This document shows, piece after piece, positions 1-59,312 of a stretch of DNA of 64,000 nucleotides. Positions within the stretch are counted from its first letter, which is position 1; each line of letters opens with the position of its first letter. This DNA is from Hydractinia symbiolongicarpus (Eukaryota > Cnidaria > Hydrozoa > Anthoathecata > Hydractiniidae), in assembly GCF_029227915.1 (NCBI RefSeq), contig NC_079879.1, positions 23,886,501 to 23,950,500 on the forward strand, in the 5' to 3' direction. Both the position numbers and the translations under genes were made by a program. The notes under the pieces are model-generated. The model saw nothing but the letters and a program-made list of their open reading frames with translations, ran no database searches and was not told the origin of the DNA.

Positions 1-880
1 ATGATTACATGCCAAATATGCCACAAGCTGTGTTGATTTCACATGGGTTAACAGGAGAAACTACGCAACATTTAACATAATGCAATCTTTGTTTGAGAGA
101 AAGTTCTTATCGAAAGTATGACACATTCACATACGGCATGTGTAACAAATGGATGAATACAAACTAGTATACGACTCCTTTAACAAATTAATAATTAGAA
201 AACTTTAGCTAGGGCTGGTTTGTAACATTTGCGCGAAGATGTTTCTCAAAGAAAACTATGGTCTGTGATGGCTGAGTGGTTAAGGCGTTTGACTCGAAAT
301 CAAATGGGATATCCCGCAAAGGTTCGAATCCTGTTCGCAGCGCAGTTGAAATGTAAAATGCAATGTGGCACTTTTACCTAAAATCAGTAGTATCCCGCAA
401 AACGCAGGTGCTAAGAGGCATGATTTGAGAAAGTCGCAAGTAATAGACCAGTGCACACAGCATGCTCCACAAAATTCTACCTAACTTGAATGCCGATAAC
501 AGGCTTTGCGTTTAAGTTTCTGGCCATTTGCTTCTTTAGCTTCAATTAACACATCGGCTGAAAAAAAATGCGGGAAAAAACAGGAGAAAGTTAAGTTTGA
601 ATTTTATTCTTTGTTTTTGACATACGTGTTAATGATTACATGTGAATTACGCCACAGGCATTTTAGATTTCACATGGGATGACAAGAGAAACTACGCAAC
701 ATTTACTATAATGCAGCTTTTTTTTTGAGAGACAGTTCTTACCAAAAAACTGGCACAGTCACATACCACATGTGCAACAAATGGATTTTTACAAACTGGT
801 ACAGGACTTCTTTAACCAATTACTAATTAGAAACCTTTAGCTAGAGCTGGTTTGTAACGTTTCCGCAAAGATGTACTCAA
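1..880. repeat. Block duplicated at +2,521 bp
   Basis: The first 880 bases match about 2,522-3,400, carrying the family B tRNA and the same flanks. The match ends before the next tRNA, where the 893 and 3414 copies differ. Confidence 0.85.
262..342 (+). tRNA. tRNA-Ser(CGA), family B
   Basis: First tRNA in the window. Acceptor 5' strand is TCTGTGA instead of GCTGCGA, so position 1 cannot pair with C72 and position 5 is a U.G wobble. D stem is GCT/GGC. T stem AAAGG/CCTGT has an A50.G64 mismatch. Anticodon loop CTCGAAA and B box are intact, TTTT follows. Probably weak or non-functional. Confidence 0.8.
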
Positions 881-892
881 AGAAATCCACGT
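836..892 (+). promoter_or_regulatory. Conserved 5' flank of the tRNA unit
   Basis: The 57 bp before the tRNA contain TTAGCTAG, then GTTTGTAACGTTT, a CGCAAAGATG or CGCGAAGATG block and ACTCAAAG. This stretch recurs before nearly every copy with few changes, and recurs before the solitary tRNA-like gene at 59,370 outside the array. That makes it a candidate upstream Pol III modulator or transcription start region. No clear TATA box is seen; an A/T-rich TTACTAATTAG stretch lies just upstream. Function is inferred. Confidence 0.45.
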
Positions 893-973
893 GCTGCGAT
901 GGCCGAGTGGTTAAGGCGTTTGACTCGAAATCAAATGGGATATCCCGCACAGGTTCGAATCCTGTTCGCAGCG
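893..973 (+). tRNA. tRNA-Ser(CGA), reference copy
   Basis: Complete type II tRNA, 81 nt including discriminator G73, no intron. Acceptor GCTGCGA (893-899) pairs perfectly with TCGCAGC (966-972). D stem GCC/GGC with loop GAGTGGTTAA; anticodon stem TTTGA/TCAAA; loop CTCGAAA with U33 and anticodon CGA at 926-928; 13-nt variable arm with GGG/CCC stem; T stem ACAGG/CCTGT with loop TTCGAAT. It would carry serine and read UCG; seryl-tRNA synthetases recognise the long arm and acceptor end rather than the anticodon (known of the family). Pol III promoter: A box TGGCCGAGTGG at 900-910 and B box GGTTCGAATCC at 952-962, both matching consensus. Terminator TTTT at 1003-1006. Other entries are described by difference from this copy, in standard tRNA numbering. 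CCA is not encoded, as expected in eukaryotes. Confidence 0.97.
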
Positions 974-1002
974 CAGTTGAAATGGAAAATTCAATGTGAC
1001 AG

Positions 1003-1006
1003 TTTT
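1003..1006 (+). terminator. Pol III T4 terminator of the reference unit
   Basis: TTTT follows the tRNA by 29 nt, giving a short 3' trailer. The same TTTT (or TTTTT) is kept in about 80 copies. It is missing from 13 copies: those starting at 30757, 31290, 32528, 33691, 42509, 43042, 44280, 45443, 46696, 47859, 48392, 49022 and 51536. A second T5 run about 270 nt further on (1245-1249) could act as a backup. Confidence 0.7.
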
Positions 1007-1247
1007 ACCTAAAATCAATAGTATCCCCCAAAACGCGGGTGCAGAGAGGCAATATTTGAGAAAGTGGCAAGTAATAGACCAGTGCACACAGCATGCTCCA
1101 CAAATTTCTACCTAACTTGAATACTGATAATAGGCTTTGCGTTCAAGCTTCTGGCCATTTGCTTCTTTAGCTTCAATTAACACATCAGCTGGATTAAATT
1201 ATGGGAAAGAAGAGGAGAAAGCTATATTTAAAATTTAGTCTTTGTTT

Positions 1248-1263
1248 TTGACATACGTGTCAA
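1248..1263. promoter_or_regulatory. Spacer dyad TTGACATACGTGTCAA
   Basis: Inverted repeat with 6-bp arms TTGACA/TGTCAA around TACG, placed directly after the spacer T5 run and about 260 bp before the next tRNA. Many units carry TGTTAA in the right arm, which costs one pair (G.T). Possible protein-binding site or transcript hairpin; no factor can be named. Confidence 0.4.
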
Positions 1264-1389
1264 TGATTACATGCCAATTATGCCACAAGCTGTGTTGATT
1301 TCACATGGGTTAACAGGAGAAACTACGCAACATTTAACATAATGCAATCTTTGTTTGAGAGAAAGTTCTTATCGAAAGTATGACACATT

Positions 1390-1404
1390 CACATACGGCA
1401 TGTG
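1390..1404. promoter_or_regulatory. Spacer dyad CACATACGGCATGTG
   Basis: CACAT and ATGTG arms flank a 5-nt centre about 120 bp before the next tRNA. The dyad recurs in nearly every unit; the centre varies (ACGGC, ACCAC, ACAAC, TCCAC) while the arms mostly persist, which is the pattern expected of a binding site or hairpin. Function unknown. Confidence 0.4.
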
Positions 1405-1522
1405 TAACAAATGGATGAATACAAACTAGTATACGACTCCTTTACCAAGTTAATAATTAGAAACCTTTAGCTGGAGATGGTTTGTAACGTTTCCGCAAAG
1501 ATGTACTCAAAGAAATCTACGT

Positions 1523-1603: not shown

Positions 1604-2151
1604 CAGTTGAAATGGAGAATGCAATGTACCACTTTTACCTAAAATCAGTAGTATCCCGCAAAAGGCAGGTGCTGAGAGGCAAAATTTGAGAAAGTTGCAA
1701 GTAATAGACCAGTGCACACAGCATGATCCACAAAATTTTACCTAACTTGAATGCCGATAGCAGGCTTTGCATTCATATTTCTAACCACTTGCTTCTTTAG
1801 CTTCAATTAACACACCGGCTGGAAAAAAATGCAGGAAAGAGGAGGAGAAAGCTAAATTTAAAATCTATTCCTTGTCTCTGACATACGTGTTAATGATTAC
1901 ATGTGAATTACGTCACAGGCTTTTAGAATTCACATGGGATGACAGGAGAAACTACGCAACATTTACTTTAATGCAGCTTTGTTTTAAGAGACAGTTCTTA
2001 CCGAAAAACTAGCACAGTCACATACCGCATATGCAACAAATGGATTTTTACAAACTAGTATAGGACTTCTTTAACAAATTACTAATTAGAAACCTTTAGT
2101 TAAAGCTGGTTTGTAACGTTTCCGCAAAGATGTACTCAAAGAAATCCACGT

Positions 2152-2232
2152 GCTGCGATGGCCGAGTGGTTAAGGCGTTTGACTCGAAATCAAATGGGAT
2201 ATCCCGCACAGGTTCGAATCCTGTTCGCAGCG
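2152..2232 (+). tRNA. tRNA-Ser(CGA), reference form
   Basis: Identical to the 893 copy, and its unit matches the 893 unit at an offset of 1,259 bp. Confidence 0.95.
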
Positions 2233-2782
2233 CAGTTGAAATGGAAAATTCAATGTGACAGTTTTACCTAAAATCAATAGTATCCCCCAAAACGCGGGTG
2301 CAGAGAGGCAATATTTGAGAAAGTGGCAAGTAATAGACCAGTGCACACAGCATGCTCCACAAATTTCTACCTAACTTGAATACTGATAATAGGCTTTGCG
2401 TTCAAGCTTCTGGCCATTTGCTTCTTTAGCTTCAATTAACACATCGGCTGGATTAAATTATGGGAAAGAAGAGGAGAAAGCTATATTTAAAATTTAGTCT
2501 TTGTTTTTGACATACGTGTCAATGATTACATGCCAAATATGCCACAAGCTGTGTTGATTTCACATGGGTTAACAGGAGAAACTACGCAACATTTAACATA
2601 ATGCAATCTTTGTTTGAGAGAAAGTTCTTATCGAAAGTATGACACATTCACATACGGCATGTGTAACAAATGGATGAATACAAACTAGTATACGACTCCT
2701 TTAACAAATTAATAATTAGAAAACTTTAGCTAGGGCTGGTTTGTAACATTTGCGCGAAGATGTTTCTCAAAGAAAACTATGG

Positions 2783-2863
2783 TCTGTGATGGCTGAGTGG
2801 TTAAGGCGTTTGACTCGAAATCAAATGGGATATCCCGCAAAGGTTCGAATCCTGTTCGCAGCG
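2783..2863 (+). tRNA. tRNA-Ser(CGA), family B
   Basis: Same sequence as the 262 copy (offset 2,521): TCTGTGA acceptor, A50.G64 in the T stem, TTTT kept. Confidence 0.8.
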
Positions 2864-3413
2864 CAGTTGAAATGTAAAATGCAATGTGGCACTTTTACCT
2901 AAAATCAGTAGTATCCCGCAAAACGCAGGTGCTAAGAGGCATGATTTGAGAAAGTCGCAAGTAATAGACCAGTGCACACAGCATGCTCCACAAAATTCTA
3001 CCTAACTTGAATGCCGATAACAGGCTTTGCGTTTAAGTTTCTGGCCATTTGCTTCTTTAGCTTCAATTAACACATCGGCTGAAAAAAAATGCGGGAAAAA
3101 ACAGGAGAAAGTTAAGTTTGAATTTTATTCTTTGTTTTTGACATACGTGTTAATGATTACATGTGAATTACGCCACAGGCATTTTAGATTTCACATGGGA
3201 TGACAAGAGAAACTACGCAACATTTACTATAATGCAGCTTTTTTTTTGAGAGACAGTTCTTACCAAAAAACTGGCACAGTCACATACCACATGTGCAACA
3301 AATGGATTTTTACAAACTAGTACAGGACTTCTTTAACCAATTACTAATTAGAAACCTTTAGCTAGAGCTGGTTTGTAACGTTTCCGCAAAGATGTACTCA
3401 AAGAAATCTACGT

Positions 3414-3494
3414 GCTGGGATGGCTGAGTGGTTAGGGCGTTTGACTCGAAATCAAATGGGATATCCCGCACAGGTTCGAATCCTGTTCGCAGCG
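3414..3494 (+). tRNA. tRNA-Ser(CGA), single variant
   Basis: Acceptor GCTGGGA gives a G5.G68 mismatch; D stem GCT/GGC and D loop end TTAGGGC. Rest matches the reference. Its block partner at 10307 keeps GCTGCGA, so the C-to-G change came after duplication. Confidence 0.8.
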
Positions 3495-4041
3495 CAGTTG
3501 AAATGGAAAATTCAATGTGACACTTTTACCTAAAATCAGTAGTATCCCCCAAAACGCAAATACCAAGTGGCAAGATTTGAGAAAGTCGCAAGTAATAGAC
3601 CAATGCACAAAGCATGCTCCACAAAATTCTACCTAACTTGAATGCCGATAACAGGCTTTGCGTTCAAGTTTCTGGCCATTTGCTTCTTTAGCTTCAATCA
3701 ACACATCGGCTGAAAAAAAATGCGGGAAAGAAGAGGAGAAAGCTAAGTTTAAATTTTATTCCTTGTTTTTGACATACGTGTTAATGATTACATGTGAATT
3801 ACGCCACAGGGTTTTAGTTTTTACATGAAATGACAGGAGAAACAACGCAACATTTAAGTTAATGCAATTTCTTTTTGAGAGAAAGTTCTTACTGAAAATA
3901 TGGCACGGTCACATACGGCATGTGTAACAAATGGATGTTTCAAACTAGTATAGGACTTCTTTACCAAGTTAATAATTAGAAACCTTTAGCTAGAGCTGGT
4001 TTGTAACGTTTCCGCAAAGATGTACTCAAAGAAATCTACGT

Positions 4042-4122
4042 GCTGCGATGGCCGAGTGGTTAAGGCGTTTGACTCGAAATCAAATGGGATATCCCGCACA
4101 GGTTCGAATCCTGTTCGCAGCG
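4042..4122 (+). tRNA. tRNA-Ser(CGA), reference form
   Basis: Exact reference sequence; TTTT in the trailer. Confidence 0.95.
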
Positions 4123-4670
4123 CAGTTGAAATGGAAAATTCAATGTGACAGTTTTACCTAAAATCAATAGTATCCCCCAAAACGCGGGTGCAGAGAGGCA
4201 ATATTTGAGAAAGTGGCAAGTAATAGACCAGTGCACACAGCATGCTCCACAAAATTCTACCTAACTTGAATGCTGATAATAGGCTTTGCCTTCAAGCTTC
4301 TGGCCATTTGCTTCTTTAGCTTCAATTAACACATCGGCTGAAATAAATTATGGGAAAGAGGAGGAGAAAGCTATATTTAAACTTTAGTCTTTGTTTTTGA
4401 CATACGTGTCAATGATTACATGCGAATTACGCCACAAGCTGTGTTGATTTCACATGGGTTGACAGGAGAAACTACGCAACATTTAATGTAATGCAATTTT
4501 TGTTTGAGAGAAAGTTCTTACCAAAAATATGACACAGTCACATACGGCATGTGCAACAAATGGATGAATACAACTAGTATACGAATCCTTTAACAAATTA
4601 ATAATTAGAAACCTTTAGCTAGGGCGTGTTTGTAACGTTTGAGCGAAGATGTACTCAAAGAAATCTACGT

Positions 4671-4751
4671 GCTGCGATGGCCGAGTGGTTAAGGCGTTTG
4701 ACTCGAAATCAAATGGGATATCCCGCACTGGTTCGAATCCTGTTCCCAATG
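4671..4751 (+). tRNA. tRNA-Ser(CGA), family F, damaged acceptor
   Basis: 3' acceptor is TCCCAAT: C2.A71 and C5.C68 mismatches and G1.U72. T stem ACTGG/CCTGT has U51.U63. Its block partner at 11564 has a normal 3' acceptor. Probably non-functional. Confidence 0.7.
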
Positions 4752-5272
4752 CAGTTGAAATGGAAAATTCGATGTGACAGTTTTACCTAAAATCAGTAGT
4801 ATCCCGCAAAACGCAGGTGCTGAGAGGCATGATTTGAGAAAGTGGCAAGTAATAGACCAGTGCACACAGCATGCTCCACAAAGTTCTACCTAACTTGAAT
4901 GCCGATAACAGGCGTTGCGTTTAAGCAATTAACACATCGGCCGAAAGAAAATGCGGGAAAGAAAAGGAGAAAGCTAAGTTTAAAATTTATTCTTGGCTTT
5001 TGACATACGTGTCAATGACTACATGCGAATTACGCCACAAGCTTCGTTGATTTCACATGGGTTGACAGGAGAAACAACGCAACATTTAATATAATGCAAA
5101 TTTTTTGAAAGAAATTGCTTGCCGAAAATATGACGCAGTCACATACGGCATGTGTAACAAATGGATGTTTACAAACTAGTATAGGACTTCTTCACCAAGT
5201 TAATAATTGAAAACATTTAGCTAGGTCTGGTATGTAACATTTGCGCAAAGATGTACTCAAAGAATTCTACGT

Positions 5273-5353
5273 GCTGCGATGGCCGAGTGGTTAAGGCGTG
5301 TGACTCGAACTCATATGGGATATCCCGCGCAGGTTCGAGTCCTGTTTGCAGCG
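5273..5353 (+). tRNA. tRNA-Ser(CGA), family D
   Basis: Anticodon stem TGTGA/TCATA (G28.U42), loop CTCGAAC (A38 to C), T stem GCAGG (G49.U65), T loop TTCGAGT, 3' acceptor TTGCAGC (G6.U67). All helices still pair. The preceding spacer has a deletion of about 27 bp (spacing 602). Confidence 0.88.
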
Positions 5354-5901
5354 CAGTTGAAATGGAGAATGCAATGTACCACTTTTACCTAAAATCAGTA
5401 GTATCTCTCAAAACGCAGGTGCTGCGAGGCAAAATTTGAGAAAGCTGCAAGTAATAGACCAGTGCACACAGCATGCTCCACAGAATTCTATCTAACTTGA
5501 AAACGGATAATAGGCTTTGCGTTCAAGTTTCTGGCCATTTGCTTCTTTTGCTTCAATTAACACATCGGCTGGAAGAAATGCGGGAAAAAAAGAGGAGAAA
5601 GCTGTATTTATGCTTTAGTCCTTGTTTTTGACATACGTGTTAACGATTACATGCGAATTACGCCACAAGGTTTGTTGATTTCACAGGGGTTGACAAGAGA
5701 AACTACGCAACATTTAACATAATGCAGCTTTTTTTTGAGAGACAGTTCTTACCGAAAAACTGGCACAGTCACATACAACATGTGTAACAAATTGATTTTT
5801 ACAAACTAGTATAGGACTTTTTTACAAATTACTAATTAGAAACCTATAGCTAGAGCTGGTTTGTAACGTTTCCGCAAAGATGTACTCAAAGAATTCTACG
5901 T

Positions 5902-13505: not shown

Positions 13506-14052
13506 CAGTTGAAATGTAAATTGAAATGTGACACTTTTACCTAAAATCAATAGTATCTCTCAAAACGCAGGTGCTGAGAGGCAAAATTTGAGAAAGCCGC
13601 AAGTAATAGACCAGTGCACACAGCATGCTCCACAGAATTCTATCTAACTTGAAAACGGATAATAGGCTTTGCGTTCAAGTTTCTGGCCATTTGCTTCTTT
13701 TGCTTCAATTAACACATCGGCTGGAAGAAATGCGGGAAAAAAAGAGGAGAAAGCTGTATTTATGCTTTAGTCCTTGTTTTTGACATACGTGTTAACGATT
13801 ACATGCGAATTACGCCACAAGCTTCGTTGATTTCACATGGGTTGACAGGAGAAACAACGCAACATTTAATATAATGCAAATTTTTTGAAAGAAATTGCTT
13901 GCCGAAAATATGACGCAGTCACATACAACATGTGTAACAAATGGATGTTTACAAACTAGTATAGGACTTCTTTACCAAGTTAATAATTAGAAACATTTAG
14001 CTAGGTCTGGAATGTAACATTTGCGCAAAGATGTACTCAAAGAATTCTACGT

Positions 14053-14121
14053 GCTGCGATGGCCGAGTGGTTAAGGCGTGTGACTCAAACTCATATGGGA
14101 TATCCCGCGCAGGTTCGAGTC
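14053..14121 (+). pseudogene. Truncated family D tRNA with CAA (Leu) anticodon
   Basis: Runs as family D up to the T loop (TTCGAGTC) and then jumps at about 14,121 into mid-spacer sequence (ATGGGTTGACAGG), losing the T-stem 3' strand and acceptor 3' strand. Loop CTCAAAC gives anticodon CAA at 14086-14088. A deletion joined two adjacent units, leaving only 285 bp to the next tRNA. Confidence 0.85.
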
Positions 14122-14130
14122 ATGGGTTGA
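14115..14130. other. Deletion junction between adjacent units
   Basis: tRNA T-loop sequence (TTCGAGTC) is fused to mid-spacer sequence (ATGGGTTGAC). About 345 bp of a unit is missing. Only about 1 bp of shared sequence at the join. Confidence 0.85.
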
Positions 14131-14337
14131 CAGGAGAAACAACGCAACATTTAATATAATGCAAATTTTTTGAAAGAAATTGCTTGCCGAAAATATGACG
14201 CAGTCACATACGGCATGTGTAACAAATGGATGTTTACAAACTAGTATAGGACTTCTTTACCAAGTTAATAATTAGAAACATTTAGCTAGGTCTGGAATGT
14301 AACATTTGCGCAAAGATGTACTCAAAGTATTCTACGT

Positions 14338-14418
14338 GCTGCGATGGCCGAGTGGTTAAGGCGTGTGACTCGAACTCATATGGGATATCCCGCGCAGGTT
14401 CGAGTCCTGTTTGCAGCG
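14338..14418 (+). tRNA. tRNA-Ser(CGA), family D
   Basis: Same tRNA as 5273 (loop CTCGAAC), 285 bp after the truncated copy. Confidence 0.88.
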
Positions 14419-33690: not shown

Positions 33691-33771
33691 GCTGCGATGG
33701 CCGAGTGGTTAAGGCGTTTGACTCGAAATCAAATGGGATATCCCGCACAGGTTCGAATCCTGTTTGCAGCT
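33691..33771 (+). tRNA. tRNA-Ser(CGA), discriminator U73
   Basis: Body is reference except 3' acceptor TTGCAGC (G6.U67). Base 73 is T instead of G, which may weaken serylation. Trailer TTCTA replaces TTTT, so there is no proximal terminator. Confidence 0.8.
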
Positions 33772-34320: not shown

Positions 34321-34401
34321 GCTGCGATGGCCGAGTGGTTAAGGCGTTTGACTCGAAATCAAATGGGATATCCCGCACAGGTTCGAATCCTGTTCGCAGC
34401 G
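34321..34401 (+). tRNA. tRNA-Ser(CGA), reference form
   Basis: Exact reference, preceded by ACTT instead of ACGT. Confidence 0.95.
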
Positions 34402-34943: not shown

Positions 34944-35024
34944 GCTGCGATGGCCGAGTGGTTAAGGCGTTTGACTCGAAATCAAATAGGATATCCCGCA
35001 CAGGTTCGAATCCTGTTCGCAGCG
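34944..35024 (+). tRNA. tRNA-Ser(CGA), near-reference
   Basis: Variable arm AGGATATCCC (G45 to A); otherwise reference. The 5' flank differs (GTGTATTGTTTGCGCG). Confidence 0.9.
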
Positions 35025-35573
35025 CAGTTAAAATGGAAAATTCAATGTGACACTTTTACCTAAAATCAGTAGTATCCCGCAAAACCCAAACACCAAGAGG
35101 CAAGATATGAGAAAATCGCAAATAATAGACCAGTGCACGCAGCATGCTCCACAAAATTCTACCTAACTTGAATGCCGACAACAGGCTTTGCGTTTAAGTT
35201 TCTGGCCATTTGCTTCTTTAGCTTCAATTAGCACATCGGCTGAAAAAAAATGCGGGAAAGAAGAGGAGAAAGCTAAGTTTAAACTTTATTCCTTGTTTTT
35301 GACATACTTGTCAATGGTTAAATGCGAATTACGCCGCAAGCTTTGTTGATTTCACATGGGTTGACAGGAGAAACTACGCAACATTTGACACAATGCAATC
35401 TTTGTTCGGGAAACAGTTCTTACCGAAAATATGGCACAGTCACATACGGCATGTGTAACAAATGGATATTCGCAAACTAGTATACAACTTCTTTAACAAA
35501 CTGATAATTAGAAACCTTTAGCTAGGGCTGGCTTGTAACGTTTACGCGAAGATGTACTCAAAGAAATCTACTT

Positions 35574-35654
35574 GCTGCGATGGCCGAGTGGTTAAGGCGT
35601 TTGAATCGAAATCAAATGGGATATCCCGCACAGGTTCGAATCCTGTTCGCAGCG
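35574..35654 (+). tRNA. tRNA-Ser(CGA), family A32
   Basis: C32 to A is the only change. Likely to fold normally. Confidence 0.88.
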
Positions 35655-36202
35655 CAGTTGGAATGGATATTGCAATGTGACACTTTTAACTAAAATCAAT
35701 AGTATCCCCCAAAACGCTGGTGCTGAGAGGCAAAAGTGGAGAAAGTCGCAAGTAATAGACCAGTGTACACAGCATGCTCCACAGAATTCTATCTAACTTG
35801 AATATGGATAATAGGCTTTGCGTTCAAGTTTCTGGCCATTTGCTTCTTTAGCTTTAATTGATACATCGGCTGGAAAAAAATGCGGGAAAGACAACGAGAA
35901 AGCTAAGTTTAAATTTTTTCCTTGTTTTTGACATACGTGTTAATGATTACATGTGAATTACCCCACAGGTATTTTAGATTTCACATTGGATGACAGGAGA
36001 CACTAGGCAACATTTAATGTTAGGCAACTTTTTTTTGAGAGAAAGTTCTTACTGAAAACTTGGCACAGTCACATACGGCATGTGTAACAACTGCTTATTT
36101 ACAAAGTAGTATGCGACTTCTTTAACAAGTTACTAATTGGAAATCTTTAGCTAGGGCGTGTTTGTAACGTTTACGCGAAGATGTACTCAAAGAAGTCTAC
36201 GT

Positions 36203-36283
36203 GCTGCGATGGCCGAGTGGTTAAGGCGTTTGACTCGAAATCAAATGGGATATCCCGCACAGGTTCGAATCCTGTTCGCAGCG
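36203..36283 (+). tRNA. tRNA-Ser(CGA), reference form
   Basis: Exact reference; repeated at 37462 (1,259 bp) and 54055 (17,852 bp). Confidence 0.95.
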
Positions 36284-36832
36284 CAGTTGAAATGGAAAAT
36301 TCAATGTGACACTTTTACCTAAAATCAGTAGTATCCCGCAAAACGCAGGTGCTGAGAGGCATGATTTGGGAAAGTTGCAAGTAATAGACCAGTGCACACA
36401 GCATGCTCCACAAAATTCTACTTAACTTGAATGCCGATAATAGGCTTTGCATTCATATTTCTGGCCATTTAATTCTTTAGCTTCAATTAACACATCGGCT
36501 GGGAAAAAAATGCGGGAAAAAGGAATAGAAAGCTAAGTTTAAATTTTATTCCTTGTTTCTGACATAAATGTTAATGATTACATGTGAATTACGCCACAGG
36601 TTTTTTAGATTTCACATGGGATGCCAGGAGACACTAGGCAACATTTAATGTAATGCAATTTTTTTTTGAGAGAAAGTTCTTACCGAAAATATGTCACAGT
36701 CACATACGGCATGTGTAACAAATGGATATTTCAAACTAGTATAGGACTTCTTTACCAAGTTAATAATTAGAAACCTTTAGCTAGAGCTGGTTTGTAACGT
36801 TTCCGCAAAGATGTACTCAAAGAAATCTACGT

Positions 36833-36913
36833 GCTGCGATGGCCGAGTGGTTAAGGCGTTTTACAGGAAATCAAATGGGATATCCCGCACAGGTTCGAAT
36901 CCTGTTCGCAGCG
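36833..36913 (+). tRNA. Ser-type tRNA with GGA anticodon, family A33
   Basis: Loop CAGGAAA: anticodon at 36866-36868 is GGA, another serine anticodon (UCC/UCU), created by C34 to G in the A33 background. U33 is absent and U30.C40 is unpaired. Acceptor, D, T arms, both boxes and TTTT are intact. Confidence 0.78.
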
Positions 36914-37461
36914 CAGTTGAAATGGAAAATTCAATGTGACACTTTTACCTAAAATCAGTAGTATCCCGCAAAACGCAGGTGCTGAGAGGCATGATTTGGG
37001 AAATTTGCAAGTAATAGACCAGTGCACACAGCATGGTCCACAGAATTCTATCTAACTTGAATATGGATAATAGGCTTTGCGTTCAAGTTTCTGGCCATTT
37101 GCTTCTTTAGCTTTAATTGATACATCGGCTGGAAAAAAATGCGGGAAAGACAACGAGAAAGCTAAGTTTAAATTTTTTCCTTGTTTTTGACATACGTGTT
37201 AATGATTACATGTGAATTACCCCACAGGTATTTTAGATTTCACATTGGATGACAGGAGACACTAGGCAACATTTAATGTTAGGCAACTTTTTTTTGAGAG
37301 AAAGTTCTTACTGAAAACTTGGCACAGTCACATACGGCATGTGTAACAACTGCTTATTTACAAAGTAGTATGCGACTTCTTTAACAAGTTACTAATTGGA
37401 AATCTTTAGCTAGGGCGTGTTTGTAACGTTTACGCGAAGATGTACTCAAAGAAGTCTACGT

Positions 37462-37542
37462 GCTGCGATGGCCGAGTGGTTAAGGCGTTTGACTCGAAAT
37501 CAAATGGGATATCCCGCACAGGTTCGAATCCTGTTCGCAGCG
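37462..37542 (+). tRNA. tRNA-Ser(CGA), reference form
   Basis: Exact reference. Confidence 0.95.
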
Positions 37543-38092
37543 CAGTTGAAATGGAAAATTCAATGTGACACTTTTACCTAAAATCAGTAGTATCCCGCAA
37601 AACGCAGGTGCTGAGAGGCATGATTTGGGAAAGTTGCAAGTAATAGACCAGTGCACACAGCATGCTCCACAAAATTCTACTTAACTTGAATGCCGATAAT
37701 AGGCTTTGCATTCATATTTCTGGCCATTTAATTCTTTAGCTTCAATTAACACATCGGCTGGGAAAAAAATGCGGGAAAAAGGAATAGAAAGCTAAGTTTA
37801 AATTTTATTCCTTGTTTCTGACATAAATGTTAATGATTACATGTGAATTACGCCACAGGTTCTTTAGCTTTCACATGGGATGACAGGAGAAACTACGCAA
37901 CATTTAACATAATGCAATTTTTGTTTGAGAGACAGATCTTACCGAAAATGTGGCACGGTCACATTCCACATGTGCAACAAATGGATTTTTACAAACTAGT
38001 ATAGGACTTCTTTAACAAATTACTAATTGGAAACCTTTAGCTAGAGCTGGTTTGTAACGTTTCCGCAAAGATGTACTCAAAGAAATCTACGT

Positions 38093-38173
38093 GCTGCGAT
38101 GGCCGAGTGGTTAATGCGTTTGACTCGAAATCAAATGGGATATCCCGCGCAGGTTCGAATCCTGTTCGCAGTG
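38093..38173 (+). tRNA. tRNA-Ser(CGA), family E
   Basis: D-stem 3' strand TGC, T stem GCAGG, 3' acceptor TCGCAGT (G1.U72). Trailer T5. Confidence 0.78.
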
Positions 38174-38724
38174 CAGTTGAAATGGAAAATTCGACGTGAC
38201 AGTTTTTCCTAAAATCAGTAGTATCCCGCAAAACGCAGGTGCTGAGAGGCATGATTTGAGAAAGTCGCAAGTAATAGACCAGTGCACACAGCATGCTCCA
38301 CAAAATTCTACCTAACTTGAATGCCAATAATAGGCTTTGCATTCATATTTCTGGCCATTTAATTCTTTAACTTCAATGAAGACATCGGCTGGGAAAAAAA
38401 TGCGGCAAAAATGAGTAGAAAGCTAAGTTTAAATTTTATTTCCTGTTTCAGACATAATTGTTAATGATTACATGTGAATTACGCCACAGGTTCTTTAGCT
38501 TTCACATGGGATGACAGGAGAAACTACGCAACATTTAACATAATGCAATTTTTGTTTGAGACACAGTTCTTACCGAAAATCTGGCACGGTCACAAACGGC
38601 ATGTGCAACAAATGGATTTTTACAAACTAGTATAGGACTTCTTCAACAAATTACTAATTGGAAACCTTTAGCTAGAGCTGGTGTGTAATGTTTCCGCAAA
38701 GATGTTTCTCAAAGAAACATACGT

Positions 38725-39435: not shown

Positions 39436-39985
39436 CAGTTGAAATGGAAAATTCGACGTGACAGTTTTACCTAAAATCAGTAGTATCCCGCAAAACGCAG
39501 GTGCTGAGAGGCATGATTTGAGAAAGTCGCAAGTAATAGACCAGTGCACACAGCATGCTCCACAAAATTCTACCTAACTTGAATGCCGATAATAGGCTTT
39601 GCATTCATATTTCTGGCCATTTAATTCTTTAGTTTCAATTAAGACATCGGCTGGGAAAAAAATGCGGGAAAAAGGAATAGAAAGCTAAGTTTAAATTTTA
39701 TTCCTTGTTTCTGACATAAATGTTAATGATTACATGTGAATTACGCCACAGGTTCTTTAGCTTTCACATGGGATGACAGGAGAAACTACGCAACATTTAA
39801 CATAATGCAATTTTTGTTTGAGAGACAGATCTTACCGAAAATGTGGCACGGTCACATTCCACATGTGCAACAAATGGATTTTTACAAACTAGTATAGGAC
39901 TTCTTTAACAAATTACTAATTGGAAACCTTTAGCTAGAGCTGGTTTGTAACGTTTCCGCAAAGATGTACTCAAAGAAATCTACGT

Positions 39986-40066
39986 GCTGCGATGGCCGAG
40001 TGGTTAATGCGTTTGACTCGAAATCAAATGGGATATCCCGCGCAGGTTCGAATCCTGTTCGCAGTG
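39986..40066 (+). tRNA. tRNA-Ser(CGA), family E
   Basis: Partner of 38093 at 1,893 bp, same tRNA. Confidence 0.78.
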
Positions 40067-40617
40067 CAGTTGAAATGGAAAATTCGACGTGACAGTTTTT
40101 CCTAAAATCAGTAGTATCCCGCAAAACGCAGGTGCTGAGAGGCATGATTTGAGAAAGTCGCAAGTAATAGACCAGTGCACACAGCATGCTCCACAAAATT
40201 CTACCTAACTTGAATGCCAATAATAGGCTTTGCATTCATATTTCTGGCCATTTAATTCTTTAACTTCAATGAAGACATCGGCTGGGAAAAAAATGCGGCA
40301 AAAATGAGTAGAAAGCTAAGTTTAAATTTTATTTCCTGTTTCAGACATAATTGTTAATGATTACATGTGAATTACGCCACAGGTTCTTTAGCTTTCACAT
40401 GGGATGACAGGAGAAACTACGCAACATTTAACATAATGCAATTTTTGTTTGAGACACAGTTCTTACCGAAAATCTGGCACGGTCACAAACGGCATGTGCA
40501 ACAAATGGATTTTTACAAACTAGTATAGGACTTCTTCAACAAATTACTAATTGGAAACCTTTAGCTAGAGCTGGTGTGTAATGTTTCCGCAAAGATGTTT
40601 CTCAAAGAAACATACGT

Positions 40618-40698
40618 GTTGCGATGGCCGAGTGGTTAATGCGTTTGACTCGAAATCAAATGGGATATCCCGCGCAGGTTCGAATCCTGTTTACAGCG
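40618..40698 (+). tRNA. tRNA-Ser(CGA), family E
   Basis: Same tRNA as 28866 and 38725. Confidence 0.72.
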
Positions 40699-41247
40699 CA
40701 GTTGAAATGAAAAATTCAATGAGACACTTTTACCTAAAATCAGTAGTATCCTGCAAAACGCAAATACCAAGGGGCAAGATTTGAGAAAGTCGCAAGTAAT
40801 AGACCAGTGCACACGGCATGCTCCACAAAATTCTACCTAACTTGAATGCTGGTAATAGGCTTTGCCTTCAAGCTTCTGGCCATTTGCTTCTTTAGCTTCA
40901 ATTAACACATCGGCTGAAATAAATTATGGGAAAGAAGAGGAGAAAGCTAAGTTTAAACTTTATTCCTTGTTTTTGACATACGTGTTAATGATTACATGTG
41001 AATTACGCCGCAAGCTTTGTTGATTTCACATGGGTTGACAGGAGAAACTACGCAACATTTAACATAATGTAATTTTTGTTTGAGAGACAGTTCTTACCGA
41101 AAATCTGGCACGGTCACATACGGCATGTGCAACAAATGGATTTTTACAAACTAGCATAGGACTTCTTTAACAAATTACAAATTGGAAACCTTTAGCTAGG
41201 GCGTGTTTGTAACGTTTGCGCGAAGATGTACTCAACGAAATCTACGT

Positions 41248-41328
41248 GCTGCGATGGCCGAGTGGTTAAGGCGTTTGACTCGAAATCAAATGGGATATCC
41301 CGCGCAGGTTCGAATCCTGTTCGCAGCG
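41248..41328 (+). tRNA. tRNA-Ser(CGA), near-reference
   Basis: Same as 29496 and 39355. Confidence 0.93.
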
Positions 41329-41877
41329 CAGTTGAAATGGAAAATTCGACGTGACAGTTTTACCTAAAATCAGTAGTATCCCGCAAAACGCAGGTGCTGA
41401 GAGGCATGATTTGAGAAAGTCGCAAGTAATAGACCAGTGCACACAGCATGCTCCACAAAATTCTACCTAACTTGAATGCCGATAATAGGCTTTGCATTCA
41501 TATTTCTGGCCATTTAATTCTTTAGTTTCAATTAAGACATCGGCTGGGAAAAAAATGCGGCAAAAATGAGTAGAAAGCTAAGTTTAAATTTTATTCCTTG
41601 TTTTTGACATACTTGTCAATGGTTACATGCGAATTACGCCGCAAGCTTTGTTGATTTCACATGGGTTGACAGGAGAAACTACGCAACATTTAACATACTG
41701 CAATTTTTGTTTGAGAGAAAGTTCTTTCCGAAAATATGTCACAGTCACATACGGCATGTGTAACAAAGGGATGTTTCAAACTAGTATAGGACTTCTTTAC
41801 CAATTTAAAAATTAGAAACCTTTAGTTAGAGCTGGTTTGTAACGTTTACGCAAAGATGTACTCAAAGAAATCTACGT

Positions 41878-41958
41878 GCTGCGATGGCCGAGTAGTTAAG
41901 GCGTTTTACACGAAATCAAATGGGATATCCCGTACAGGTTCAAATCCTGTTTGCAGCG
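41878..41958 (+). tRNA. tRNA-Ser(CGA), family A33
   Basis: Partner of 30126 at 11,752 bp, same G18A and A33 changes. Confidence 0.72.
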
Positions 41959-42508
41959 CATTTGAAATGTAAATTTCAATCTGACACTTTTACCTAAAAT
42001 CAGTAGTATCCCGCAAAACGCAGGTGCTGAGGGGCATGATTTGGGAAAGTTGCAAGTAGTAGACCAGTGCACACAGCATGCTACACAAAATTCTACCTAA
42101 CTTGAATACCGATAATAGGATTTGCGTTCAAGTTTCTGGTCATTTGCTTCTTTAGCTTCAATTACCACGTCGGCTGGAAAAAAATGCGGGAAAGAAGAGG
42201 AGAAAGCTAAGTTTAAATTTTATTCTTTGTTTTTGAAATATGTGCTAATTATTACATGTGAATTACGCTACAGCTTTTTTAGATTTCACATGGGATGACA
42301 GGACAAAACTACGCAACATTTGACACAATGCAATCTTTGTTCGCGAGACAGTTCTTACCGAAAATATGGCACAGTCACATACGGCATGCGTAACAAATGG
42401 ATATTCACAAACTAGTATACAACTTCTTTAACAAACTGATAATTAGAAACCTTTAGCTAGGGCTGGTTTGTAACGTTTACGCGAAGATGTACTCAAAGAA
42501 ATCTACTT

Positions 42509-42589
42509 GCTGCGATGGCCAAGTTGTTAAGGCGTTTGAATCGAAACCAAATGGGATATCCCGCACAGGTTCGAATCCTGTTCGCAGCG
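42509..42589 (+). tRNA. tRNA-Ser(CGA), family A32
   Basis: Partner of 30757, plus a further A-box change (GCCAAGTTG in place of GCCGAGTTG). No proximal T4. Confidence 0.72.
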
Positions 42590-43041
42590 CAGTTGAAATG
42601 GAAAATTCAATGTGACACTACCTAAAATCAGTAGTATCCCGCAAAACGCAAATACCAAGAGGCAAGATATTAGAAAGTCGCAAATAATAGACCAGTGCAC
42701 ACAGCATGCTCCACAAAATTCTACCTAACTTGAATGGCGACAACAGGTTTAAATTTTTTTCTTTCTTTTTGACATCGTGTTAATGATTACATGTGAATTA
42801 CGCCACAGGTTTTTTAGATTTTACATGGGATGACAGGAGACACTAGGCAACATTTAACATACTGCAAATGTTGTTTGAGAGAAAGTCCTTACCGAAAATA
42901 TGTCACAGTCACATACGGCATGTGTAACAAATGGATGTATCAAACTAGTATAGGACTTCTTTACCAAGTTAAAAATTAGAAACCTTTAGCTAGAGCTGGT
43001 TTGTAACGTTTCCGCAAAGATGTACTCAAAGAAATCTACGT

Positions 43042-43122
43042 GCTGCGATGGCCGAGTGGTTAAGGCGTTTTACACGAAATCAAATGGGATATCCCGTACA
43101 GGTTTAAATCCTGTTTGCAGCG
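43042..43122 (+). tRNA. tRNA-Ser(CGA), family A33, weak B box
   Basis: Partner of 31290 with the same GGTTTAAATCC and short TTT-only trailer. Probable pseudogene. Confidence 0.68.
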
Positions 43123-43649
43123 CGTCTGACAGCTTTACCTAAAATCAGTAGTATCCGGCAAAATGCAGGTGCTGAGAGGCATGATTTGGGAAAGTTGCAA
43201 GTAATAGACCAGTGCACACAGCATGCTCCACAAAATTCTACCTAACTTGAATGCCGACAACAGGCTTTGCGTTTAAGTTTCTGGCCATTTGCTTCTTTAG
43301 CTTCAATTAACACATCGGCTGAAAAAAATGCGGGAAAGAAGAGGAGAAAGCTAAGTTTAAATTTTATTCCTTGTTTTTGGCATACGTGTTAATGATTACA
43401 TGTGAATTACACCACAGGCTTTTAGATTTCACATGGGATGACAGGAGACACTAGGCAACATTTAACATACTGCAATTTTTGTTTGAGAGAAAGTTCTTTC
43501 CGAAAATATGTCACAGTCACATACGGCATGTGTAACAAATGGATGTTTCAAACTAGTATAGGACTTCTTTACCAATTTAAAAATTAGAAACCTTTAGTTA
43601 GAGCTGGTTGGTAACGTTTACGCGAAGATGTACTCAAAGAAATCTACGT

Positions 43650-43730
43650 GTTGCGATGGCCGAGTGGTTAAGGCGTTTTACACGAAATCAAATGGGATAT
43701 CCCGTACAGGTTCAAATCCTGTTTGCAGCG
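43650..43730 (+). tRNA. tRNA-Ser(CGA), family A33
   Basis: Partner of 31898 (GTTGCGA acceptor). Confidence 0.72.
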
Positions 43731-44279
43731 CATTTGAAATGTAAATTTCAATCTGACACTTTTACCTAAAATCAGTAGTATCCCGCAAAACGCAGGTGCT
43801 GAGGGGCATGATTTGGGAAAGTTGCAAGTAATAGACCAGTGCACACAGCATGCTACACAAAATTCTACCTAACTTGAATACCGATAATAGGATTTGCGTT
43901 CAAGTTGCTGGTCATTTGCTTCTTTAGCTTCAATTACACGTCGGCTGGAAAAAAATGCGGGAAAGAAGAGGAGAAAGCTAAGTTTAAATTTTATTCTTTG
44001 TTTTTGAAATATGTGCTAATTATTACATGTGAATTACGCCACAGCTTTTTTAGATTTCACATGGGATGACAGGACAAAACTACGCAACATTTGACACAAT
44101 GCAATCTTTGTTCGGGAGACAGTTCTTACCGAAAATATAGCACAGTCACATACGGCATGTGTAACAAATGGATATTCACAAACTAGTATACAACTTCTTT
44201 AACAAACTGATAATTAGAAACCTTTAGCTAGGGCTGGTTTGTAACGTTTACGCGAAGATGTACTCAAAGAAATTTACGT

Positions 44280-44360
44280 GCTGCGATGGCCGAGTGGTTA
44301 AGGCGTTTGAATCGAAATCAAAAGGGATATCCCGCACAGGTTCGAATCCTGTTCGAGGCG
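44280..44360 (+). tRNA. tRNA-Ser(CGA), family A32, damaged acceptor
   Basis: Partner of 32528 (TCGAGGC 3' acceptor, no T4). Confidence 0.73.
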
Positions 44361-44812
44361 TAGTTGAAATGGAAAATTCAATGTGACACTACCTAAAATC
44401 AGTAGTATCCTGCAAAACGCAAATACCAAGAGGCAAGATATGAAAATTCGCAAATAATAGACCAGTGCACACAGCATGCTCCATAAAATTCTACCTAACT
44501 TGAATGGCGACAACAGGTTTAAATTTTTTTCCTTGTTTTTGACATCGTGTTAATGATTACATGTGAATTACGCCACAGGTTTTTTAGATTTCACATGGGA
44601 TGACAGGAGACACTAGGCAACATTTAACATACTGCAAATGTTGTTTGAGAGATAGTTCTTACCGAAAATCTGGCACAGTCACATACGGCATGTGCAACAA
44701 ATGGATTTTTACAAACTAGTATAGGACTTCTTTAACAAATTACTAATTGGAAACCTTTAGCTAGATGTGGTGTGTAACGTTTCCGCAAAGATGTACTCAA
44801 AAAAATCTATGT

Positions 44813-44893
44813 GCTGCGATGGCCGAGTGGTTAATGCGTTTGACTCGAAATCAAATGGGATATCCCGCGCAGGTTCGAATCCTGTTTACAGCG
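44813..44893 (+). tRNA. tRNA-Ser(CGA), family E
   Basis: Partner of 33061 at 11,752 bp. Confidence 0.73.
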
Positions 44894-45442
44894 CAGTTGA
44901 AAGGAAAAATTCAATGAGACACTTTTACCTAAAATCAGTAGTATCCTGCAAAACGCAAATACCAAGGGGCAAGATTTGAGAAAGTCGCAAGTAATAGACC
45001 AGTGCACACGGCATGCTCCACAAAATTCTACCTAACTTGAATGCCGGTAATAGGTCTTGCGTTCAAATTTCTTGCTACTTGCGTCTTTAGCTTCAATTAA
45101 CACATCGGCTGAAAAAAAATGCGGGAAAGAAGAGGAGAAAGCTAAGTATAAACTTTATTCCTTGTTTTTGACATACTTGTCAATGGTTACATGCGAATTA
45201 CGCTGCAAGCTTTGTTTATTTCACATGGGTTGACAGGAGAAACTACGCAACATTTAACATAATGTAATTTTTGTTTGAGAGACAGTTCTTACCGAAAATC
45301 TGGCACGGTCACATACGGCATGTGCAACAAATGGATTTTTACAAACTAGCATAGGAATTCTTTAACAAATTACTAATTAGAAACCTTTAGCTAGAGCTGG
45401 TGTGTAACGTTTCCGCAAAGATGTACTCAAAGAAATCTACGT

Positions 45443-45523
45443 GCTGCGATGGCCGAGTGGTTAAGGCGTTTGACTCGAAATCAAATGGGATATCCCGCAC
45501 AGGTTCGAATCCTGTTTGCAGCT
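45443..45523 (+). tRNA. tRNA-Ser(CGA), discriminator U73
   Basis: Partner of 33691; no proximal T4. Confidence 0.8.
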
Positions 45524-46072
45524 CAGTTAAAATAGAAAATGCAATGTGGCACTTCTACCTAAAATCAGTAGTATCCTACAAAACGCTGGTGCTGAGAGGC
45601 ATGATTTGAGAAAGTCGCAAGTAATAGACACGTGCACACAGCATGCTACACAAAATTCTACCTAACTTGAATACCGTTAATAGGATTTGCGTTCAAGTTT
45701 CTGGTCATATGCTTCTTTAGCTTCAATTACCACGTCGGCTGGAAAAAAATGCGGGAAAGAAGAGGAGAAAGCTAAGTTTAAATTTTATTCCTTGTTTTTG
45801 ACATATGTGCTAATTATTACATGTGAATTACGCCACAGCTTTTTTAGATTTCACATGGGATGATAGGAGAAACTACGCAACATTTGACACAATGCAATCT
45901 TTGTTCGGGAGACAGTTCTTACCGAAAATATGGCACAGTCACATACGGCATGTGTAACAAATCGATATTCACAAACTAGTATACAACTTCTTTAACAAAC
46001 TGATAATTAGAAACCTTTAGCTAGGGCTGGTTTGTAACGTTTACGCGAAGATGTACTCAAAGAAATCTACTT

Positions 46073-46153
46073 GCTGCGATGGCCGAGTGGTTAAGGCGTT
46101 TGACTCGAAATCAAATGGGATATCCCGCACAGGTTCGAATCCTGTTCGCAGCG
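46073..46153 (+). tRNA. tRNA-Ser(CGA), reference form
   Basis: Exact reference; partner of 34321. Confidence 0.95.
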
Positions 46154-46695
46154 CAGTTAAAATGTAAAATTCAATGTGACACTTTTACCTAAAATCAGTG
46201 GTATCCGGCAAAACGCAGGTGCTAAGAGGCATGATTTGGGAAATTGCAAGTAATAGACCAGTGCACACAGCATGCTCCACAGAGTTCTATCTAACTTGAA
46301 TATGGATAATAGGCTTTGCGTTCAAGTTTCTGGCCATTTGCTTCTGTAGCTTCAATTAACACATCGGCTGAAAAAAAATGCGGGAAAGAAAAGGAGAAAG
46401 CTAAGTTTAAGTTTTTTTCCTTGTTTTTGACATACGTGTTAATGATTACATGTGAATTACGCAGGTTTTTAGATTTCACATGGGATGACAGGAGAAACTA
46501 CGCAACATTTGACACAATGCAATTTTTTTTGAGAGAAATTGCTTACTGAAAATATGGCACAGTCACATACAGCTGTGTAAGAAATGGATATTAACAAACT
46601 AGTATGCAACTTCTTTAACAAATTACTAATTAAAAACCTTTAGCTAGGGCTGGTTTGTAACGTTTACGCGAAGATGTACTCAAAGAAATCTACTT

Positions 46696-46776
46696 GCTGC
46701 GATGGCCGAGTGGTTAAGGCGTTTGACTCGAAATCAAATGGGATATCCCGCACAGGTTCGAATCCTGTTCGCAGCG
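46696..46776 (+). tRNA. tRNA-Ser(CGA), reference form without T4 terminator
   Basis: The tRNA is exactly reference, but the trailer reads GACACTACC, so the usual TTTT is gone. This unit joins a reference tRNA to the terminator-less 533-bp spacer type. Confidence 0.93.
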
Positions 46777-47228
46777 CAGTTGAAATGGAAAATGCAATGT
46801 GACACTACCTAAAATCAGTAGTATCCCGCAAAACGCAAATACCAAGAGGCAAGATATGAGAAAGTCGCAAATAATAGACCAGTGCACACAGCATGCTCCA
46901 CAAAATTCTACCTAACTTGAATGGCGACAACAGGTTTAAATTTTTTTCTTTCTTTTTGACATCGTGTTAATGATTACATGTGAATTACGCCACAGGTTTT
47001 TTAGATTTTACATGGGATGACAGGAGACACTAGGCAACATTTAACATACTGCAAATGTTGTTTGAGAGAAAGTTCTTACCGAAAATATGTCACAGTCACA
47101 TACGGCATGTGTAACAAATGGATGTATCAAACTAGTATAGGACTTCCTTACCAAGTTAAAAATTAGAAACCTTTAGCTAGAGCTGGTTTGTAACGTTTCC
47201 GCAAAGATGTACTCAAAGAAATCTACGT

Positions 47229-55313: not shown

Positions 55314-55394
55314 GCTGCGATGGCCGAGTGGTTAAGGCGTTTGACTCGAAATCAAATGGGATATCCCGCACAGGTTCGAATCCTGTTCGCAGCG
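55314..55394 (+). tRNA. tRNA-Ser(CGA), reference form
   Basis: Exact reference; partner of 37462. Confidence 0.95.
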
Positions 55395-55944
55395 CAGTTG
55401 AAATGGAAAATTCAATGTGACACTTTTACCTAAAATCAGTAGTATCCCGCAAAACGCAGGTGCTGAGAGGCATGATTTGGGAAAGTTGCAAGTAATAGAC
55501 CAGTGCACACAGCATGCTCCACAAAATTCTACTTAACTTGAATGCCGATAATAGGCTTTGCATTCATATTTCTGGCCATTTAATTCTTTAGCTTCAATTA
55601 ACACATCGGCTGGGAAAAAAATGCGGGAAAAAGGAATAGAAAGCTAAGTTTAAATTTTATTCCTTGTTTCTGACATAAATGTTAATGATTACATGTGAAT
55701 TACGCCACAGGTTCTTTAGCTTTCACATGGGATGACAGGAGAAACTACGCAACATTTAACATAATGCAATTTTTGTTTGAGAGACAGATCTTACCGAAAA
55801 TGTGGCACGGTCACATTCCACATGTGCAACAAATGGATTTTTACAAACTAGTATAGGACTTCTTTAACAAATTACTAATTGGAAACCTTTAGCTAGAGCT
55901 GGTTTGTAACGTTTCCGCAAAGATGTACTCAAAGAAATCTACGT

Positions 55945-56025
55945 GCTGCGATGGCCGAGTGGTTAATGCGTTTGACTCGAAATCAAATGGGATATCCCGC
56001 GCAGGTTCGAATCCTGTTTACAGTG
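55945..56025 (+). tRNA. tRNA-Ser(CGA), family E
   Basis: D-stem 3' strand TGC; 3' acceptor TTACAGT (C5.A68, G1.U72). Confidence 0.72.
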
Positions 56026-56574
56026 CAGTTGAAATGAACAATTCAATGAGACACTTTTACCTAAAATCAGTAGTATCCCGCAAAACGCAAATACCAAGGG
56101 GCAAGATTTGAGAAAGTCGCAAGTAATAGACCAGTGCACTCGGCATGCTCCACAAAATTCTACCTAACTTGAATGCCGGTAAGAAGCTTTGCGTTCAAAT
56201 TTCTGGCTACTTGCTTCTTTAGCTTCAATTAACACATCGGCTAAAAAAAAAATGCGGGAAAGAAGAGGAGAAAGCTAAGTTTAAAATTTATTCCTTGTTT
56301 TTGACATACTTGTCAATGGTTACATGCGAATTACGCCGCAAGCTTTGTTGATTTCACATGGGTTGACAGGAGAAACTACGCAACATTTGACACAATGCAA
56401 TCTTTGTTCGGGAAACAGTTCTTACCGAAAATATGGCACAGTCACATACGGCATGTGTAACAAATGGATGTTTCAAACTAGTATAGGACTTCTTTACCAA
56501 GTTAATAATTAGAAACCTTTAGCTAGAGCTGGTTTGTAACGTTTCCGCAAAGATGTACTCAAAGAAATCTACGT

Positions 56575-56655
56575 GCTGCGATGGCCGAGTGGTTAAGGCG
56601 TTTTACACGAAATCAAATGGGATATCCCGCACAGGTTCGAATCCTGTTCGCAGCG
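56575..56655 (+). tRNA. tRNA-Ser(CGA), family A33
   Basis: A33 loop; all other arms reference, TTTT present. Confidence 0.77.
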
Positions 56656-56964
56656 CAGTTGAAATGGAAAATTCAATGTGACACTTTTACCTAAAATCAG
56701 TAGTATCCCGCAAAACGCAAACACCAAGAGGCAAGATATGAGAAAGTCGCAAATAATAGACCAGTGCACGCAGCATGCTCTACAAAATTCTACCTACCTT
56801 GAATGCCGACTACAGGCTTTGCGTTTAAGTTTCTGGCCAATTGCTTCCTTAGCTTCAATTAACACATCGGCTGAAAAAAAATGCGGGAAAGAAGAGGACA
56901 AAGCTAAGTTTAAACTTTATTCCTTGTTTCTGACATACTGGTCAATGGTTAAATGCGAATTACG

Positions 56965-56985
56965 CCGCAAGCTTCAATTAACACA
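56965..56985. other. Junction with AGCTT microhomology
   Basis: CGCCGCAAGCTT (normally followed by TGTTGATTTC) continues as CAATTAACACATC, the sequence that normally follows TTTAGCTT. The shared AGCTT at 56,970-56,974 is the likely crossover; it repeats about 117 bp of spacer and makes the 747-bp unit. Confidence 0.85.
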
Positions 56986-57321
56986 TCGCCTGGAAAAAGT
57001 ATGGGAAAAAAGAGGAGAAAGCTATTTTAAAGCTTTATTCTTTGTTTTTAACATACGTGTTAATGATTACATGCGAATTACGCCACAGGTTTTTTAGATT
57101 TCACATGGGATGACAGGAGACACTACGCAACATTTACTGTAATGCAATTTTTTTTGAGAGAAAGTAGTTACTGAAAATATGGCACATTCACATACGGCAT
57201 GTGAAACAACTGCATATTAGCAAATTAATATACGACTTCTTTAATAAATTACTAATTAGAAACCTGTAGCTAGAGCGTGTTTGTAACGTTTGCGCGAAGA
57301 TGTACTCAAAGAAATCTTCGT

Positions 57322-57402
57322 GCTGCGATGGCCGAGTGGTTAAGGCGTTTGACTCGAAATTAAATGGGATTTCCCGCACAGGTTGGAATCCTCTTCGCAG
57401 CG
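57322..57402 (+). pseudogene. Degenerate terminal tRNA-Ser(CGA)
   Basis: Last copy of the array. Anticodon stem TTTGA/TTAAA (G30.U40 wobble), variable arm GGGATTTCCC, T loop TTGGAAT (B box and C56 lost), T-stem 3' strand CCTCT. Acceptor pairs perfectly. The spacer before it is 747 bp with a junction at 56,970. Edge copies of arrays usually decay because exchange does not renew them. Confidence 0.75.
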
Positions 57403-57772
57403 CAGTTGAAACAGAAAATTCAATGTGACACTTTTACCTAAAATCAATAGTATCCCCCAAAACGCTGGTGCAGAGAGGCAAAATTAGAGGAAGTCGCAAG
57501 TAATAGACCAGTGCATATGGCATGCTCCACAAAATTCTACCTAACTTGAGTGCCGATAATAGGCTTTGCGTTCAAGTTTCTGGCCATTTGCTTCTCTTGC
57601 TTCAATTAACACATCGGTTGGAATAATTTATCGGAAAGAAGAGGAGAAAGCTATGTTTAAATTTTATTTCTTGTCTTTGACATACGTGTTAATGATTACA
57701 TGTGAATTACGCCACCGGTTTTTTAGATTTTACATGGGATGACAGGAGGCACTACGCAACATTAAACATACT

Positions 57773-59293: not shown

Positions 59294-59312
59294 GTTACCC
59301 ACCATAGAAGCC

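Follow-up and report, generated by a model that had tools for sequence, protein, structure and literature searches.

The tRNA repeat of Xenopus laevis is an animal example of tandem transfer RNA (tRNA) genes, with a unit that mixes several tRNAs. In Entamoeba, arrays of tRNA-containing units form much of the tRNA gene set (PMC2652664), and the SYY cluster of Arabidopsis comprises 27 units across almost 40 kb (PMC12308677, PMC10701932). Nearest to the case described here, tandem arrays of genes for tRNAs and other RNAs have been published for Hydractinia (PMC11067881). Here, we describe a tandem array of tRNA-Ser(CGA)-like genes in a 64,000-nucleotide stretch of the Hydractinia symbiolongicarpus assembly (480,894,487 bases in 76 sequences). 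This stretch, C5:23886501-23950500, is referred to as the window. The array has the tens to hundreds of evenly spaced RNA-gene copies and the homologous spacers of the published Hydractinia arrays, with 164 copies that mostly lie 627-632 bp apart, and is a member of that kind, perhaps one that the same paper already tabulates. Our preferred reading, to which we give a probability of roughly 0.6, is that its tRNA is a divergent tRNA-Ser(CGA) isodecoder and that selection may hold only part of the array while the rest drifts.

Layout of the array and state of its copies

The part of the array in the window consists of 93 head-to-tail copies of a unit of approximately 630 bp, every one of which carries a single tRNA-Ser-like gene on the + strand (Table 1). 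ARAGORN found 92 tRNAs in the window (92/92 on the + strand), Rfam family RF00005 gave 93 matches over its curated cut-off, of which 92 are in the array and one is in a relic at 59377-59442, and blastn with one copy as the query returned 93 in-array copies and the same relic. The original prediction, made from the window alone, of a 93-copy array with a 630 bp unit was therefore upheld in coordinates and copy number. It had also anticipated that the array continues past the left edge, and 71 extra copies were indeed found in the adjoining 44 kb, bringing the whole array to 164 copies that span 102,034 bp from a first copy at C5:23842418. As 91 window units share 88.5% identity on average in pairwise comparisons, the repetition is not due to chance, and the array is real. 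The prediction would have been in danger had a covariance model rejected most copies, but this did not occur; RF00005 accepted 92/93, although the model is lenient and 56/93 carry defects.

Start-to-start intervals are exactly 630 bp in 31/93 cases and 627-632 bp in 76/93, a count that includes as its last the 2048 bp gap between the array and the relic. The remaining intervals are 533 (six), 623 (three), 602 (two), 608 (two), 285, 679, 747 and 2048 bp. Guanine and cytosine make up 38.9% of the array, compared with 33.3% of the 20 kb to the left and 34.3% of the last 28 kb read to the right, where the closing 1.8 kb of array sequence is counted in.

The same isoacceptor and strand had been predicted for every unit. 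This holds for the strand and only partly for the isoacceptor: the anticodon is CGA in 89/93 window copies, GGA in two, TAA in one and CAA in one, and ARAGORN called one Leu(TAA) and two Ser(GGA) among the window tRNAs. A copy was considered intact if 20 tested stem pairs were standard (Watson-Crick or G-U), ten bases that are invariant in tRNAs were present, the anticodon was CGA and there was no indel. By this rule 37/93 window copies and 76/164 copies overall are intact, or 70/164 when A37 is also demanded. The structure of a functional tRNA-Ser(CGA), with cloverleaf, long variable arm, CGA anticodon, invariant bases and G discriminator, is thus present in 76 copies and absent from 88. Each of the 56 defective window copies has a mismatch in a stem, lacks an invariant base, contains an indel or departs from the CGA anticodon. 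Among the frequent defects, U33 is lost and the 30-40 pair is also broken in 12 window copies, and pairs 5-76, 12-23, 1-80 and 58-72 are each mispaired in 8-11; the copy starting at 14053 was damaged beside a local 285 bp duplication. The exact consensus tRNA is found in 20 window copies and in 29/164 overall. About half of the copies in the array are structurally defective. The long single-isoacceptor array that had been predicted exists and is longer than was claimed, but fewer than half of its copies are intact by this rule, although all had been treated as genes.

Selection, block duplication and related genes

Selection on the tRNA was assessed using the spacer of the same units, taken in windows of tRNA length, as the control. 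The exact consensus tRNA is present in 20/91 window units, compared with a maximum of three over 468 spacer windows; when the commonest haplotype was the yardstick, the figures were 20 and at most 13. Across the whole array, for which 161 of the 163 intervals were used and those of 406 and 285 were left out because of their odd length, the corresponding values were 29/161 against at most three, and 29 against at most 18. The spacers of the 20 consensus-tRNA units differ by 11.0% on average. In the window, the tRNA has changed at 0.67 of the expected rate, lower than 467/467 spacer windows. Stem changes in the window keep pairs in 39 cases and break them in 37 (expected 22.2 and 67.7; p=5e-7), and those in the whole array keep 84 and break 64 (expected 40.4 and 112.5; p=7e-15), with pair-keeping changes also found in the acceptor, anticodon and D stems. 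Among the 164 copies, 109 have A-U at pair 57-73, 45 have G-U, eight have G-C and two are unpaired there. As the identical copies, the rate, the pairing bias and pair 57-73 all point the same way, we conclude that the structure of the tRNA was under selection in the history of the array and that this selection no longer holds about half of the copies.

Gene conversion was considered as a source of the identical tRNAs. Diversity among the 20 identical copies is 0 in the gene, 0.10 at -1 to -10, 0.00 at -11 to -20, 0.03 at +1 to +10 and 0.15 at +11 to +20, and this flank diversity suits selection better; short conversion tracts may have contributed.

Among 161 units, 85% preserve the B box letters, as much as is reached by 10/537 spacer windows, and the B box GGTTCGANTCC is retained in 62/88 defective copies. 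The presumed terminator for RNA polymerase III (Pol III), TTTT, lies exactly 30 nt after the tRNA in 74/93 window copies and within 40 nt in 80/93 (143/164 overall), compared with 25% of random array positions. It is found in 36/37 intact and 44/56 defective window copies (p=0.013), an association that we do not rely on because relatedness was ignored. Two upstream stretches (Table 1) are only weakly associated with intactness (p=0.07 and 0.04, relatedness again ignored) and their variation was not under chance in a site-shuffling test, so they stay candidates. Similarly, as the slowest-changing spacer stretches (the best at unit columns 175-214) were not lower than site shuffling yields, no spacer element is claimed. 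A second gene in the spacer was also considered and rejected: a lax Rfam scan of two units returned the tRNA and otherwise only sub-cut-off matches, one in antisense to a plastid family and one, weak and far under its cut-off, to a small nucleolar RNA.

Over 161 units of the whole array the mean identity is 88.3% and the minimum 82.5%, which makes the units similar but not nearly identical. The array contains duplicated segments, each about 2 to 11 units long, and the 11 longest in the window are 1.3-7.1 kb with identities of 97.2-99.3%. Multi-unit segments duplicated at such high identity point to repeated multi-unit exchange, and the array would have grown by unequal crossing-over that copied several units at once. 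These block duplications multiply intact and defective tRNAs alike.

The genome was also scanned with a Ser pattern that allowed up to two mismatches and included Ser(AGA) and Ser(TGA), which found 623 matches on the forward strand and 735 on the reverse. The forward matches are several times what the C5 array can supply, and further serine tRNA arrays or many + strand copies must therefore exist. Exact matches outside C5, among the matches listed, lie on C11 (one) and C14 (two), and ARAGORN called all three tRNA-Ser(CGA); the genome hence has at least three dispersed tRNA-Ser(CGA) genes. They resemble the array unit in the tRNA alone. One sequence is shared by two of these genes and differs at 1 base in 82 from the tRNA-Ser(AGA) on C2, from which the third gene differs at two. 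The array consensus differs from the dispersed genes by two compensatory T-stem pairs and, in the variable arm, by one substitution and one deletion. Because of these differences and the dispersed genes, the array is, judged by sequence, an isodecoder in its own right, and tRNA-Ser(CGA) has other sources as well.

A mixed tRNA array was found on C2. It has a 1,163 bp unit with seven tRNAs (Gly, Phe, Ser-TGA, Cys, Glu, Ser-AGA and Thr) and occupies all 30 kb read (C2:31945000-31974999). Identity is 99.3% among seven of its units, which were picked with an exact 40-base seed and may thus be the most similar ones. Pattern matches are also regular at C2:31658588-31677701, with a left end near C2:31651606, and the array would exceed 310 kb if it is continuous through the stretch between. 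In one C2 piece, ARAGORN called a Val(GAC) in place of Gly(GCC) at 816-886 and a Phe(AAA) in place of Phe(GAA) at 4512-4584. These anticodon variants are isolated and the array is otherwise uniform.

Weighing the explanations

The C5 locus is most likely an old array of tRNA genes that has gone half of the way towards an ordinary satellite. It would have spread via multi-unit duplication, its tRNA formerly selected and now about half decayed, with selection keeping part of the array and the remainder drifting like a satellite. We limit selection to a part because dispersed genes exist and because the duplications make no distinction between intact and broken tRNAs. Several observations weigh against this reading. 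The tRNA rate over the whole array is only 0.78 of expectation, and 1/468 spacer windows is equally low. Stem changes were placed on a single tree by parsimony and lack full independence; with each kind of change counted once, 24 keep and 34 break pairs (p=0.0095). The A box is conserved to a degree equalled by 48/537 spacer windows. The TTTT is largely shared through descent, and at 30 nt it is distant, while several C2 tRNAs have T runs within about 20 nt. Members of families at 97% identity are intact in 33/76 cases and singletons in 4/15 (91 units), such that favouring of intact copies is not beyond doubt.

A rival reading is a satellite that happens to contain a tRNA gene, with copies that are now silent passengers of unequal exchange and signs of selection that date from an era of few copies. 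The array is long and tandem (102 kb) with multi-unit blocks of up to 7.1 kb, as expected of a satellite grown by unequal exchange; 88/164 copies fail the intactness rule, recent blocks multiply defective types (the 262 type five times, and several types with broken U33 or stems three times each), tRNA-Ser(CGA) genes exist elsewhere, and the units are 88% identical compared with 99.3% in the C2 array. However, 70 to 76 of the 164 copies are still well formed, the pair-keeping bias occurs in changes scattered over the tree, and this bias and the surplus of identical tRNAs do not fit a satellite without selection on its sequence, at least in the past. We regard silent passengers as possible rather than probable. 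The array might also be a dedicated source of the divergent isodecoder for a particular cell type or stage, by analogy with the Arabidopsis SYY cluster, and the broken copies might be tolerated or yield tRNA fragments; this seems unlikely.

A role mainly as a chromatin boundary or TFIIIC platform, in which the B box would outweigh the tRNA product, might account for the B box in the 62 defective copies that keep it, and barrier activity of tRNA genes is known in a human and mouse case (PMC4041453). As conservation extends beyond the B box, to pair-keeping changes in the acceptor, anticodon and D stems, we consider such a role improbable. Inflation of the copy number by the assembly is less credible still. 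Repeats are difficult to assemble and near-identical blocks here reach 7.1 kb, but divergence is about 12% among units and 0.7-2.8% between the copies of the longer duplicated blocks, the HiFi reads have an N50 of 13.2 kb that exceeds the longest block (PMC10411563), and artefact has been argued against for RNA arrays as a class (PMC11067881). An array of a divergent isodecoder, only partly held by selection, is thus the reading that we prefer.

Flanking sequences and comparison with known arrays

Table 1. Coordinates of the array and associated features in the window
Feature	Position	Strand	Remarks
In-window part of tRNA-Ser(CGA) array	1..57772	+	93 units of ~630 bp; ARAGORN, blastn, Rfam
Example unit	893..1522	+	starts with tRNA identical to array consensus
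tRNA-Ser(CGA)	893..973	+	every stem paired; 1 of 20 consensus-identical window copies
TTTT, presumed Pol III terminator	1003..1006	+	30 nt past tRNA
Candidate upstream stretch GTACTCAAAG	873..882	+	-20 to -11; invariant beside 20 consensus-identical tRNAs
Candidate upstream stretch TGTAACGTTT	853..862	+	-40 to -31; little variation beside intact copies
~6-unit block	1739..5767	+	duplicated at 8632-12660, 98.6%
Local 285 bp duplication	13836..14406	+	damages tRNA copy starting at 14053
~11-unit block	27928..35059	+	duplicated at 39680-46811, 99.28% identical
~5-unit block	34959..38325	+	duplicated at 52811-56177, 98.9%
~11-unit block, second copy	39680..46811	+	copy of 27928-35059
Local 118 bp duplication	56851..57084	+	stretches last interval to 747 bp
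Relic of unit (tRNA and upstream flank)	59305..59442	+	1.5 kb past right end of array

Old relics of the unit, 66-77% identical, lie further away: a piece with two copies, 12 kb to the right of the array (C5:23956675-23957430), and a fragment 4 Mb off on the opposite strand (C5:19721209-19721386). Their distance implies that the unit was formerly longer-ranging or dispersed. A 28-base pattern from the unit had no exact match in viral_contigs or genome_contigs.

Open reading frames antisense to the tRNA are mechanical, and the two homologues recovered, in Porites and Nematostella, look like tRNA-Ser genes translated in antisense. When eight proteins (seven from frames in the flank and one from the array) were compared with Pfam, none matched a family over the curated cut-off and one had two sub-threshold matches. 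A coding-like frame at 58374-58816 on the - strand is broken by a 137 bp tandem duplication (58415-58686, 95% alike), and a protein search with it returned no homologue. At 60292-60681, also on the - strand, an open frame of about 129 codons has a hydrophobic start like a signal peptide; neither a Pfam family over the cut-off nor a homologue was found for it.

A single genome holds a half-decayed array of one tRNA and, on another chromosome, a homogeneous array of seven. Comparing the C5 and C2 arrays could reveal why some tandem RNA genes stay uniform and others decay, and the C5 array displays intermediates of compensatory stem evolution (G-C, G-U and A-U) side by side. The contrast between the two was not found in the examined parts of PMC11067881, and our literature search, which did not extend to supplementary tables, recognised no paper describing this particular array.

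Among the published systems, the SYY cluster shares with the C5 array tandem tRNAs, serine genes, tRNA-like pseudogenes and growth by tandem duplication, but it is from a plant, has mixed Ser/Tyr units, and is methylated and expressed in root cap cells (PMC12308677, PMC10701932). The Bombyx silk-gland tRNA-Ala cluster also consists of animal tandem tRNA genes of a single isotype (cited via PMC12308677). Single-tRNA units such as [H-GTG] occur in Entamoeba, which is a protist whose copies are mostly uniform and in which the authors saw no clear evidence of pseudogenes (PMC2652664). The human variable number tandem repeat at 1q23.3 likewise has tandem tRNA units in an animal genome, but its GC-rich unit of 7.3 kb contains five tRNA genes and a CTCF site and is present in 9-43 copies that are 98% identical (PMC4041453). 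The RNA arrays published for Hydractinia are from the same species, and their copies are nearly identical or highly similar (PMC11067881), whereas the C5 units are 88% identical and around half of their tRNAs are defective. The kind of array is already known, and its advanced decay on C5 is a useful detail.

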